This document shows positions 24,128 through 27,284 of a stretch of DNA of 31,510 nucleotides, piece by piece. The DNA comes from a virus. Positions within the stretch are counted from its first letter, which is position 1. Each line of letters opens with the position of its first letter. Under the pieces are notes generated by a model. It was not told the origin of the DNA. It ran no database searches and saw only the letters and a program-made list of their open reading frames with translations. Both the position numbers and the translations under genes were made by a program. The stretch covers positions 1 to 31,510 of IMG/VR virus record IMGVR_UViG_3300017527_000084, one strand, 5' to 3'.

Positions 24128-24562
24128 ATGGAAAAATATAACATAACACAGCATCAAACATCTATTGATATTGATTTTGATAAATTATCAAAAGAACAGA
24201 TAATAATTAGAGCTAAAGAAATTGAAAAAGAAGGAGAAAAAAAGACATGTAAAAGATGTCTAAAACAAAAATTGTTTAACAAGTATAGGTTAAGAACAGA
24301 AAGAAGAGGAGTGAAAGGTATTTATTATGATGCAACGTGTAAAGATTGCCATGCAAGAACAAGAGGAACCAAAGAAATAGGGAAATTGAGTTATGCAAAA
24401 ACTTTATTTGATAAAGGTTTTAGAAGGTGTACGACTTGCAAAGAAACAAAGCCACTAACTGAATACTATGGCAATAAGGCATCACCCACTAAAGTAGATA
24501 ATACGTGTAAAATATGCTCTATTAAAATAACATGTCGGAAATATCACGACTCGAAGAAGTAG
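24128..24562 (+). CDS. Double zinc-finger protein, likely acquired
   Basis: 144 residues with four CxxC pairs: C41/C44, C71/C74, C101/C104, C127/C130, forming two similar modules (TCKRCLKQKLFNKYR...CKDC and RCTTCKETKPLTEYYG...CKIC). The modules are the same type as zinc-binding parts next to HNH/homing endonucleases, but no HNH catalytic residues are visible. Codon use differs from its neighbours: arginine is mostly AGA and lysine AAA, while neighbours favour CGA. Flanked by an inverted repeat and a promoter. Probably a mobile, selfish-type accessory gene or a DNA-binding factor; function unknown. Confidence 0.6.
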   Translation: MEKYNITQHQTSIDIDFDKLSKEQIIIRAKEIEKEGEKKTCKRCLKQKLFNKYRLRTERRGVKGIYYDATCKDCHARTRGTKEIGKLSYAKTLFDKGFRRCTTCKETKPLTEYYGNKASPTKVDNTCKICSIKITCRKYHDSKK

Positions 24563-24564
24563 TA

Positions 24565-24594
24565 TTGGCGGTTAAATAAATTATACTATCTTTG
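24565..24594 (+). promoter_or_regulatory. Promoter upstream of replication genes
   Basis: TTG at 24565-24567, 19 nt, TATCTTTG at 24587-24594: both elements and spacing match the Bacteroidota consensus. The start is expected at about 24599-24601, at the left arm of the stem described next. Confidence 0.75.
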
Positions 24595-24596
24595 TC

Positions 24597-24665
24597 AGAA
24601 GAGGTTGCTTAGTTTAGCGACTGCGTAAAAGGTTTACACGCTTCCTTTCCTCTTCTATTTTTTTT
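24597..24665 (+). ncRNA. Structured leader RNA / attenuator
   Basis: AGAAGAGG (24597-24604) pairs exactly with CCTCTTCT (24649-24656), followed by A and eight T residues, so a terminator closes a 44-nt loop that itself holds a hairpin: GCGTAAA (24623-24629) with TTTAC and GC (24633-24641). The TTTACACGCTT strand can instead pair with AAGCGTGTGTAAA (24666-24678, one 2-nt bulge) near the start of the next gene. A free RNA of about 65 nt, or a leader controlling the replication genes, are both possible. No ligand or known riboswitch class recognised. Confidence 0.55.
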
Positions 24666-24688
24666 AAGCGTGTGTAAAAAGCGACATT

Positions 24689-25336
24689 ATGAAAAAATCA
24701 TTTGTATTACATCGTGATAGCTTGGTAGTTCTGGACGAACTAACTGATGAACAAGCAGGTAAATTATTTAAGGCAATACGATCATACCATGAAGGTGATG
24801 TTATCGACTTGGATTTCGCTATGAAAATGGCATTTCTACCATTCAAGAATCAATTCGAACGTGACCAAGAAACCTATCAAAAGATCGTGGAACGTAACCG
24901 TAGTAACGGACGCAAGGGTGGTGCGCCAACTAAACCCAAGACAACCCAAAAAACCCAGTCGGTTATTCAAGAACCCAAAAAAGCCGATAGTGATAGTGAT
25001 AGTGTAAATGATAGTGATAATGAAAAAGAAGATAAGAGTACATCGACTAAAGTCGAAGGGTTTGATTGGGATAGTTTACGTTTACTAATCAACAAGACGT
25101 TTGGCAGAGAATTCAAGACCATAAACAAAGACGTACGCAAAAAATACAATGCACGACTAAAAGATGGTTACACAAAAAAGGATGTACTTAATGCCATAAA
25201 CAACTGTAAGAACGACAAGTTCCACATTGACCTAAATTTCCACCACTGTACACCCGAATATTTCAGCCGATCCAATACCCTCGATTTGCACAGTACGACC
25301 AAAGCCACGAACAAACCATATAACGCTCACTCATGA
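24689..25336 (+). CDS. Replication initiator / helicase-loader-like protein
   Basis: 215 residues. The N-terminal part (VLHRDSLVVLDELTDEQAGK, AIRSYHEGD, FKNQFERDQETYQKIVERNR) looks like the DUF6291-type domain of Bacteroidota phages. A low-complexity Ser/Asp/Lys/Thr linker (90-120) follows. The C-terminal part (about 125-205: SLRLLINKTFGREFKTINKD, RLKDGYTKKDVLNAINNCKN, HHCTPEYFS) matches the phage conserved C-terminal domain Phg_2220_C, found in replication initiators and helicase loaders. It overlaps the dnaB start by 4 nt, which supports a loading role for that helicase. Confidence 0.7.
   Translation: MKKSFVLHRDSLVVLDELTDEQAGKLFKAIRSYHEGDVIDLDFAMKMAFLPFKNQFERDQETYQKIVERNRSNGRKGGAPTKPKTTQKTQSVIQEPKKADSDSDSVNDSDNEKEDKSTSTKVEGFDWDSLRLLINKTFGREFKTINKDVRKKYNARLKDGYTKKDVLNAINNCKNDKFHIDLNFHHCTPEYFSRSNTLDLHSTTKATNKPYNAHS
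24986..25021 (+). repeat. Hexamer repeat (GATAGT) in coding sequence
   Basis: Six hexamers in a row: GATAGT three times, GTAAAT, GATAGT, GATAAT. In frame they code for the Ser-Asp-rich linker of the replication protein. Such in-frame repeats vary by slippage and may change linker length between relatives. Confidence 0.8.
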
Positions 25337-26688
25337 GAACACCACAGCACGAAATATTTAACAGACTAATAAACAGTCAAGGCGGTGAAGCTATCACGAT
25401 GATATCTAAGTGTTCAGACTACACATTCCACACGGGTGATGATCGTATCATATTCGAAGCGGTTAAGCAATGCGTATCACAAGGAATGCAACCACATCCT
25501 GTTGCTATCATAAGAGTAATGAAGGAACAAAAGACGTTTGAACGTAGGTTTGTTTCTATGCTTAGTGAGTTAACGACCACCGACATGGATAACACCTTAC
25601 CATTTGATAGTGTTTGTTCACAAGCGAGGGAGGAAACAAATGAGTACATGATACGAAACTTCACAGGTAACGTGTTGAACAGTTTGAACCAAGGAACATT
25701 CACACTGGATGGATATTTAGACCAGGCAAAACAGCTTGAAACAAGTGTGACACTAGAATCAAAACAAGAGCGTACATCTAAAGACGTAATCAAAACACTA
25801 GTAACACGTCACGACAAAGCAAAGGCGGGTGACATCACAGGATTAAGTCTTGGATTTATGAACCTATCCAAATACATAATACTAGAACCTGTTGATGTTA
25901 TGTTGGTGGCTGCACGACCTGCAATGGGTAAGAGTGCGTTTGCCGTTTCATGTATCAAAAGACTTTGTTTTCAACAGAACTTGAAGGTGGCTTTGTTTTC
26001 CCTTGAAATGTCAACCGAACAGATACACCGTAGACTTGTTGCAGAACTTACTGACATTGGAATGAACCGACAAAAGGAAGGACGATGTAGCAAAACAGAG
26101 ATACAACAGATCGAAGCGTTAACGAACAAGAAGGAACTGGACAATCTCACAGTGTTCGAAGGAACACACACCAATACCGACATCCGGCGAAAGGTTACAG
26201 AACTAAAATACACTAAAGGCGTCGACGTTTTTATTGTTGACTACATCCAAAAGATCAAACCGAATAAGAGCTCAAACAGTTATGAGGAAATCACAGAAGT
26301 ATCTGGAGCATTAAAAGAAACTTGTCAAAATCTCAAAGTACCATGTATTGCACTGGCTCAACTATCAAGAAATTCAGAGCAACGTGGTGGTGATAAACGT
26401 CCAGTACTGTCTGACCTTAAAGGTTCGGGATCATTAGAACAAGATGCGTCTGTTGTTGGCTTTCTACATCGCCCAGAATATTACGGTATCATGCAGGACG
26501 AAGAAGGAAATTCTAATGCAGGACTTGGTGAGTTCATAATCGCAAAGAATCGAGAAGGTGAATGTGGATTGATTAATTTTAAGGTTGAACTAGGACTATC
26601 ACGATGGACTGAACAAAACGAAACGATAATATCCAACAACAGCATAACACAAAACATTGATTTCGACACAGAGGAAACACCGTTCTGA
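25333..26688 (+). CDS. dnaB: Replicative DNA helicase (DnaB family)
   Basis: 451 residues. N-terminal domain 1-110 (QHEIFNRLINSQGGEAITMI) then the RecA-like domain. Walker A is ARPAMGKS (194-201), Walker B VFIVDY (299-304), with the motif Q343LSRN and the arginine-rich R351GGDKRPVLSDLKGSGS region that follow the family order. Length matches the typical 450 residues. It unwinds the replication fork and would be loaded by the preceding gene's product. Start overlap is ATGA. Confidence 0.95.
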   Translation: MRTPQHEIFNRLINSQGGEAITMISKCSDYTFHTGDDRIIFEAVKQCVSQGMQPHPVAIIRVMKEQKTFERRFVSMLSELTTTDMDNTLPFDSVCSQAREETNEYMIRNFTGNVLNSLNQGTFTLDGYLDQAKQLETSVTLESKQERTSKDVIKTLVTRHDKAKAGDITGLSLGFMNLSKYIILEPVDVMLVAARPAMGKSAFAVSCIKRLCFQQNLKVALFSLEMSTEQIHRRLVAELTDIGMNRQKEGRCSKTEIQQIEALTNKKELDNLTVFEGTHTNTDIRRKVTELKYTKGVDVFIVDYIQKIKPNKSSNSYEEITEVSGALKETCQNLKVPCIALAQLSRNSEQRGGDKRPVLSDLKGSGSLEQDASVVGFLHRPEYYGIMQDEEGNSNAGLGEFIIAKNREGECGLINFKVELGLSRWTEQNETIISNNSITQNIDFDTEETPF

Positions 26689-26955: not shown

Positions 26956-26986
26956 TTGATATACTAATATATTATACATATATTTG
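26956..26986 (+). promoter_or_regulatory. Early promoter 3 (TTG-N20-TATATTTG)
   Basis: TTG at 26956-26958 and TATATTTG at 26979-26986, 20-nt spacing. The start site then lies in AACTTTAAAA (26990-26999), as in the promoter at 23.28 kb, with a leader of about 12 nt to the ATG. Region 26943-27011 holds no gene. Confidence 0.75.
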
Positions 26987-27011: not shown

Positions 27012-27284
27012 ATGAACAAGGCATCACAGGCAGATATCAAATTCTATAAGGGTGTGTTGTTGGTGAAAATCCACGACAAACTGACATCAGACAAAACATA
27101 CATGAGTATCGACGAACTTGATACGTTCTTAAAGTCATACGCAGATTTGAATGAACTATCATGTGGTGAAATGACACACGAACAGATGCAGATACTAAAA
27201 GAATATTCGAAGCAATTTGCATCTAGCATTGGAATGGGTGTTGATGCATTCGACAAAGACAACGAAATCAATTTTAATTTTTAA
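27012..27284 (+). CDS. Hypothetical early protein
   Basis: 90 residues. KVLLVKIHDKLTSDKTYMSIDELDTF-type start with helices (DELDTFLKSYADLNE, HEQMQILKEYSKQFASS) and an acidic end. Read from the third early promoter, before the OB-fold-like gene. No family known to me; typical small replication-region protein. Confidence 0.55.
   Translation: MNKASQADIKFYKGVLLVKIHDKLTSDKTYMSIDELDTFLKSYADLNELSCGEMTHEQMQILKEYSKQFASSIGMGVDAFDKDNEINFNF

Follow-up and report, generated by a model that had tools for sequence, protein, structure and literature searches.

Organization of the leader region

The analysed DNA, called the window below, is an IMG/VR virus record of 31,510 bases. It belongs to a phage of the Bacteroidota type, in which a short RNA segment with a predicted fold precedes the DNA-replication genes. 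The elements described in an earlier note on this DNA, namely a promoter, an 8-bp stem followed by T8, the pairing of a strand 2 and the motif GCGTAAA (24623-24629), are all found in the sequence. The features of the region, in order along the plus strand, are the following:

24565-24594 (+): Bacteroidota-type promoter; TTG at 24565-24567, 19 nt, TATCTTTG at 24587-24594
24597-24604 (+): strand 1 (AGAAGAGG), the 5' strand of helix P1, predicted to lie at or near the first transcribed base
24605-24628 (+): hairpin I, TTGCTTAGT (TTAGCG) ACTGCGTAA; conserved hexaloop UUAGCG at 24614-24619
24628-24648 (+): possible weak hairpin II (AAAGG / CCTTT), with strand 2 in its loop
24633-24643 (+): strand 2 (TTTACACGCTT)
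24649-24656 (+): strand 1' (CCTCTTCT), which completes helix P1 on the 3' side; A and T8 come next
24658-24665 (+): T8, separating 1' from 2'; resembles a terminator in this phage, not conserved in the family
24666-24678 (+): strand 2' (AAGCGTGTGTAAA), the partner of strand 2
24675-24680 (+): TAAAAA, matching the Flavobacterium ribosome-binding motif (from the sequence and PMC2483708); falls between 2' and 2''
24679-24685 (+): strand 2'' (AAGCG plus AC), an incomplete repeat of 2', close to the start codon
24689-25336 (+): first gene of the operon, encoding a DUF6291 replication/primosomal-like protein (Pfam PF19808, E=1.8e-25)

The promoter motif of Bacteroidota is TAnnTTTG/TTTG, and the ribosome-binding motif of Flavobacterium is TAAAA, located 2-12 nt 5' of the start codon (PMC2483708). 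In the window AAGCGAC (24679-24685) is followed by ATT and then by the ATG at 24689; strand 2'' is here the 5-nt AAGCG, 5 nt before the ATG, and is too short to stand alone. The PHROG matches of the DUF6291 gene product are primosomal and replication initiation proteins, and a DnaB helicase gene (25333-26688) follows.

Helix 1:1' (P1) is formed by AGAAGAGG/CCTCTTCT, with 8 bp, and helix 2:2' by TACACGCTT/AAGCGTGTG, and the two interleave; between strands 2 and 2' there are 9 contiguous pairs, or 11 with a 2-nt bulge. Jointly, 1:1' and 2:2' constitute a predicted H-type pseudoknot enclosing a hairpin. Hairpin II has a calculated energy of -2.4 kcal alone, and its AGG...CCT belongs to the family consensus; a competing 6-bp hairpin (24604-24621) is calculated to be more stable than hairpin I in the window.

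Two further observations concern the surroundings. The product of the gene upstream of the leader (24128-24562) is rich in Cys and weakly matches Lar-like and endonuclease VII/HNH families. At 26956-26986, 25 nt before an open reading frame at 27012, stands another strong promoter of the Bacteroidota type (TTG-20-TATATTTG), which has no structured leader.

Interleaved helices in the window and in leaders of DUF6291 genes

The best interleaved helix pair of the leader reaches -31.5 kcal of stacking, a value that no dinucleotide shuffle out of 300 surpasses (p = 0.003), and ranks first among about 2,100 plus-strand 97-nt windows of the record. Nested folding, under an energy model that cannot score a pseudoknot, is unexceptional (z -0.3 for 156 nt, z -2.1 for the 68-nt RNA). 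The signal is the interleaving of helices, not an ordinary nested fold. The earlier note recognised no known class in this leader, and the comparison with Rfam agrees, since none of the 4,227 models of release 15 gave a match above chance at either gathering or lax thresholds. A literature search, with most subscription papers outside its reach, found no earlier description of such a leader.

The first relatives were collected through searches with the DUF6291 protein, the leader sequence being left unused. The leaders of these DUF6291 genes are of similar length throughout, the distance between -7 box and gene being 94-139 nt in most, and have the order 1-2-1'-2' in common, while the sequences of the strands differ, as in L009 (GCTTCCAC/GTGGAAGC with CCGATCATTT/AAATGGTCGG) and L012 (CACGACC/GGTCGTG with CCGCCA/TGGCGG). 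In the interleaving test all 41 of these leaders gave p<=0.047, most of them at the floor of 1/301; the control, 21 regions upstream of DUF6291 genes that lack such a leader, gave p values that look uniform. A second set chosen by protein was sorted solely by the promoter box, and p<=0.05 was obtained for 16 of 19 promoter-led leaders vs 8 of 24 regions with no box, several of these 8 resembling leaders with a variant promoter. Such a leader was not found before the DUF6291 genes of Vibrio, Pseudoalteromonas and Riemerella phages or of the group E contigs, and a search based on DnaB yielded distant relatives only.

The largest subtype, group B (37 distinct sequences), shares with the window the interleaved order 1-2-1'-2' between a TAnnTTTG promoter and a gene of the DUF6291 family. 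It differs in that both helices are hairpins with kissing loops and a T-run follows 2', and the model of the window subtype does not match it. Watson-Crick pairs fill all 259 kissing cells, in six different 7-mer versions (swapped strands 85%), and one kissing position uses all four pair types. The model made from the window subtype likewise finds no match in groups A-D, so that common topology, rather than common ancestry, is what these groups demonstrate.

Several side observations were made among these leaders. Group B (L046-L144, e.g. L096:591-700) is a large separate kissing-loop family with a T-run before DUF6291 genes and has no entry in Rfam; its A-loop GUNNNAG pairs with the B-loop CUNNNAC in six fully compensated versions. 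An upstream open reading frame in this group (AUG after a GAGG) was dropped as a candidate, the AUG not being kept. In L010, L026, L012 and L200 strand 1 recurs directly before the ATG and the three copies change together (GGGCAG/CTGCCC/GGGCAG vs GAGCAG/CTGCTC/GAGCAG; CACGACC/GGTCGTG/CACGACC vs ACACAACC/GGTTGTGT/ACACAACC), the AUG itself being included in the pairing in L012. The leader at L154:590-700 has the exact order of the window (1, hairpin, 2, 1', T-run, 2', repeat before the ATG), with no sequence match to the model.

The UUAGCG leader subtype

A hairpin with a UUAGCG loop and an AGG-strand 2-CCT arrangement are common to the window and to L045, L335, L339 and L341. Viral contigs were searched with the pattern TTAGCGN{5,10}TTCAAYGAGGTT, which contains no pairing, so the loop and the joining segment are constant in the set found by construction. 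Among the 52 stretches returned, about 31 are distinct leaders that precede a gene; the others are duplicates or coding-region matches, and about 15 of the 52 were discarded as lying inside coding sequence. A TAnnTTTG-like box is located 9-22 nt (mostly 14-15) 5' of the UUAGCG loop in 28 of 32 relatives.

The window is a member of this subtype. A covariance model built from 33 leaders with the window left out matches 24598-24691 (E=0.0011, the next match at 4.7), and a sequence-only nhmmer model, also without the window, matches 24609-24690 (E=0.0016, next 0.23). Hairpin I (24605-24628, with one 1x1 mismatch) is located by MAFFT, nhmmer and the covariance model alike. The window has the 8-bp P1 at the 5' end, the UUAGCG hairpin after strand 1 and the interleaved 2:2'; it is divergent in that TTCAAYGAGG is reduced to AAAAGG, hairpin I carries the mismatch and 2'' is short.

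In a model-based alignment of 34 distinct rows, itself fitted to the structure, P1 and hairpin I are 93.1% paired, and sliding the partner by 1-3 columns lowers pairing to 19-47%. The two helices contain 147 double-change cells against a shuffled mean of 50.5 (0/500), with a covariation score of 0.838 against 0.271 when shuffled. The structured leader proposed in the earlier note is supported by these figures, the pairings of the relatives being conserved and covarying. Energies calculated on unaligned strands point the same way for each helix, own strands vs strands swapped between sequences giving -12.8 and -8.6 for 1:1', -12.0 and -6.5 for 2:2', and -6.7 and -4.5 for 2:2'' (-5.5 at best in 60 swaps). 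The observed values are lowered by errors of the automatic parse, which assigned strand 2 or 2' wrongly in L370, L387, L388 and L414. Where it was parsed, 2'' ends 0-8 nt 5' of the start codon. The comparison demonstrates that about 32 leaders have the predicted pairings of P1, hairpin I, 2:2' and 2:2'' and retain them although the sequence changes; in every case a start codon follows directly.

These results alter the pairing scheme. The earlier note had drawn two mutually exclusive pairings of strand 2, one with GCGTAAA and one with the segment before the initiator start. In the relatives GCGTAA is the 3' arm of the conserved UUAGCG-loop hairpin, and 1:1' and 2:2', being interleaved, are sterically compatible as a pseudoknot, so the exclusivity as drawn is weakly supported. 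The competition to which the family points would be that between 2' and the second copy 2'' at the start codon.

In the segment 24595-24604 strand 1 begins 3 nt past the -7 box, and the covariation of the relatives also reaches close to the box. Covariation so near the -7 box means that transcription starts unusually close to it or that part of P1 is untranscribed; at the usual distance from box to start, the first bases of strand 1 would lie at the very edge of the transcript or just outside it. Two degenerate leaders of the window type, with other hairpin loops, were also seen (L402:2873-2960 and, on the minus strand, L392:9196-9284), each before a gene with a NUMOD4-HNH-like protein start, in records that also hold a standard copy.

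Termination and the level of conservation

The stem and T8 of the window admit a reading in which most transcripts stop at T8 after 1:1', leaving an RNA of about 66 nt whose exposed strand 2 may act in trans on 2'/2'' of the read-through mRNA, like the P4 CI RNA or IsrK. An 8-bp stem followed by T8 is indeed present, the 68-nt RNA folds better than its shuffles, 2' and 2'' would offer strand 2 two targets, as seqA/seqC do for the P4 CI RNA, and in IsrK a terminated RNA is known whose target is its own read-through transcript (PMC4825925). Against this, only 10 of 32 relatives have a T-run (at least 7 T in 8) behind 1', and the loop is 44 nt, which is why the standard terminator scan did not detect the stem and T8. 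Since 2' lies downstream of the T-run, 2:2' cannot decide termination in the same transcription event. Of the terminator described earlier, the stem and T8 therefore stand in the window and their conservation does not; a small free RNA made by it is weakly supported, and termination is at best a local extra. An attenuator that releases a small RNA is on the whole considered unlikely.

The level at which the leader is conserved differs between its parts. In P1 and hairpin I, closing pairs counted, there are 61 G-U against 8 A-C cells, and this excess indicates that the plus-strand RNA is what is conserved there. Helix 2:2' shows no excess of G-U over A-C (4 vs 4 internal, 8 vs 9 flanking), so that these repeats could partly reflect DNA sites. 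The strands 2, 2' and 2'' might accordingly be iterons or operators for an initiator or repressor near a replication origin, with RNA pairing as a by-product; a word of 5-9 bp stands in three copies, one of them inverted, beside initiator genes, and the matches are near-perfect. The interleaved P1 and hairpin I show covariation and wobble of the RNA type, 2'' is often truncated and the identical layout precedes homing endonuclease and methylase genes, all of which speaks against DNA sites and leaves this explanation improbable. The case for RNA in 2:2' lies in its interleaving with P1, its position at the ribosome site and, by analogy, the existence of the kissing subtype. Antisense control of the ColE1/R1 kind was rejected, an opposite-strand -7 box being present in 0 of 41 leaders.

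Downstream genes and distribution

The genes downstream of UUAGCG leaders are mostly replication starters. DUF6291 or DUF6291-like proteins are encoded there in about 10 members and NUMOD4-HNH endonucleases in seven (L366, L369, L370, L371, L375, L377 and L399), and the other genes include a C5 methylase (L367), a GIY-YIG protein (L394) and a Prim-Pol protein (L401); further members have unassigned proteins that resemble replication starters. One clear copy of the leader is found per virus record. A host or prophage origin was rejected, as the subtype models, in searches run without a positive control, gave no match in 395 + 395 Bacteroidota genomes. The group B model gave weak matches only (at most 38 bits, true leaders scoring 63-114 bits), which were taken as chance on score alone, uninspected. 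Two leaders compared by blastn with 50,697 phage records gave chance matches only; that in Bacteroides phage BT566P1 was rejected, as it lies inside a gene on the opposite strand.

Comparison with known systems

The leader of gene 32 in phages T4 and T2, an autogenous translational operator, is likewise an H-type pseudoknot in a phage mRNA leader, located tens of nucleotides before the start, adjoined by an A+U-rich initiation region and preceding a replication protein gene (PMC3014915). In contrast to gene 32, the pseudoknot described here reaches to about 14 nt from the AUG, encloses a conserved hairpin, is accompanied by 2'' at the start codon and is found before many genes unrelated to each other. 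These unrelated downstream genes would argue against binding by the gene's own product, as in gene 32.

In the P4 CI RNA and the IsrK of Gifsy-1, too, a leader segment before phage genes can pair with complementary sites in its own transcript, and the sites of P4 also precede replication genes (PMC4825925). The targets in P4 lie on both sides of CI, whereas here both are downstream, at the ribosome site, and there is no sign of a conserved terminator or processing site. Structured leaders directly before homing endonuclease genes are known from I-TevI, SegB and mobE, where a hairpin that sequesters the ribosome-binding site is thought to limit translation; it is nested and is avoided through an internal late promoter (PMC2988022). 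Here the interleaved structure uses the transcript's own 5' end, so that every transcript from the promoter carries the leader structure.

A further conceivable role is that of a put-like antiterminator located where the operon begins, whose RNA would modify RNA polymerase. The structure immediately follows the promoter, at the very 5' end, and heads long DNA-metabolism operons, a position that would suit such a role. The put element consists of two hairpins, without such a pseudoknot, and a 2' copy within 0-8 nt of the start codon would be unneeded, which makes an antiterminator highly improbable.

Proposed mechanism and significance

The reading favoured here, held with somewhat better than even confidence, is that of a cis-acting pseudoknotted mRNA leader which would govern how the first gene of the replication operon is translated. 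All evidence for a function of the leader is comparative; we infer that the pairings form in the cell and act on translation, and the direction of control and the signal likewise. The constant features point to translation in that 2' and 2'' flank an A-rich TAAAA-like tract near the start. In Flavobacterium, translation is tuned by mRNA structure in the interval -20 to +20 around the start codon (PMC6847099).

Strand 1, at the 5' end of the transcript, would pair with 1' and close P1 around hairpin I, with its UUAGCG loop, and strand 2. Strand 2 would then dock at the translation-initiation region, either at 2', upstream of the TAAAAA tract, or at the shorter 2'', in the interval between tract and AUG. 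As 2' is the stronger and 2'' the weaker partner, strand 2 can serve as a lid with two positions, and a shift of this anchor between 2' and 2'', or its release, would open or close the start site. What sets the balance between the two is probably a signal acting in trans and recognising the conserved hairpin together with the joining segment. Since the downstream genes differ, a single protein binding autogenously is unlikely to be the shared signal, and the simplest guess is a host or phage factor common to all that reads the UUAGCG hairpin.

More tentatively, and with less than even confidence, the leaders may represent a widespread and undescribed class of riboregulators of Bacteroidota phages, in which a constant sensor (the UUAGCG hairpin and the joining segment) is combined with an address strand whose sequence is freely re-coded and which would select one of two target copies around the ribosome site. 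Such a class would be used before replication starters and homing endonucleases, and might be a phage riboswitch responding to a common infection signal.

To our knowledge, little is known of how Bacteroidota phages time their replication. The leader is probably an RNA switch that sets the amount of the first replication protein; its class is apparently undescribed, and a switch of translation is its most likely role. The mRNAs of Bacteroidota are generally without Shine-Dalgarno sequences (PMC6847099). A strongly covarying leader, absent from Rfam and common to dozens of phages and several unrelated genes, offers a compact element of phage gene control that can be tested directly, and would also be a possible expression-control part for bacteria with few such tools.
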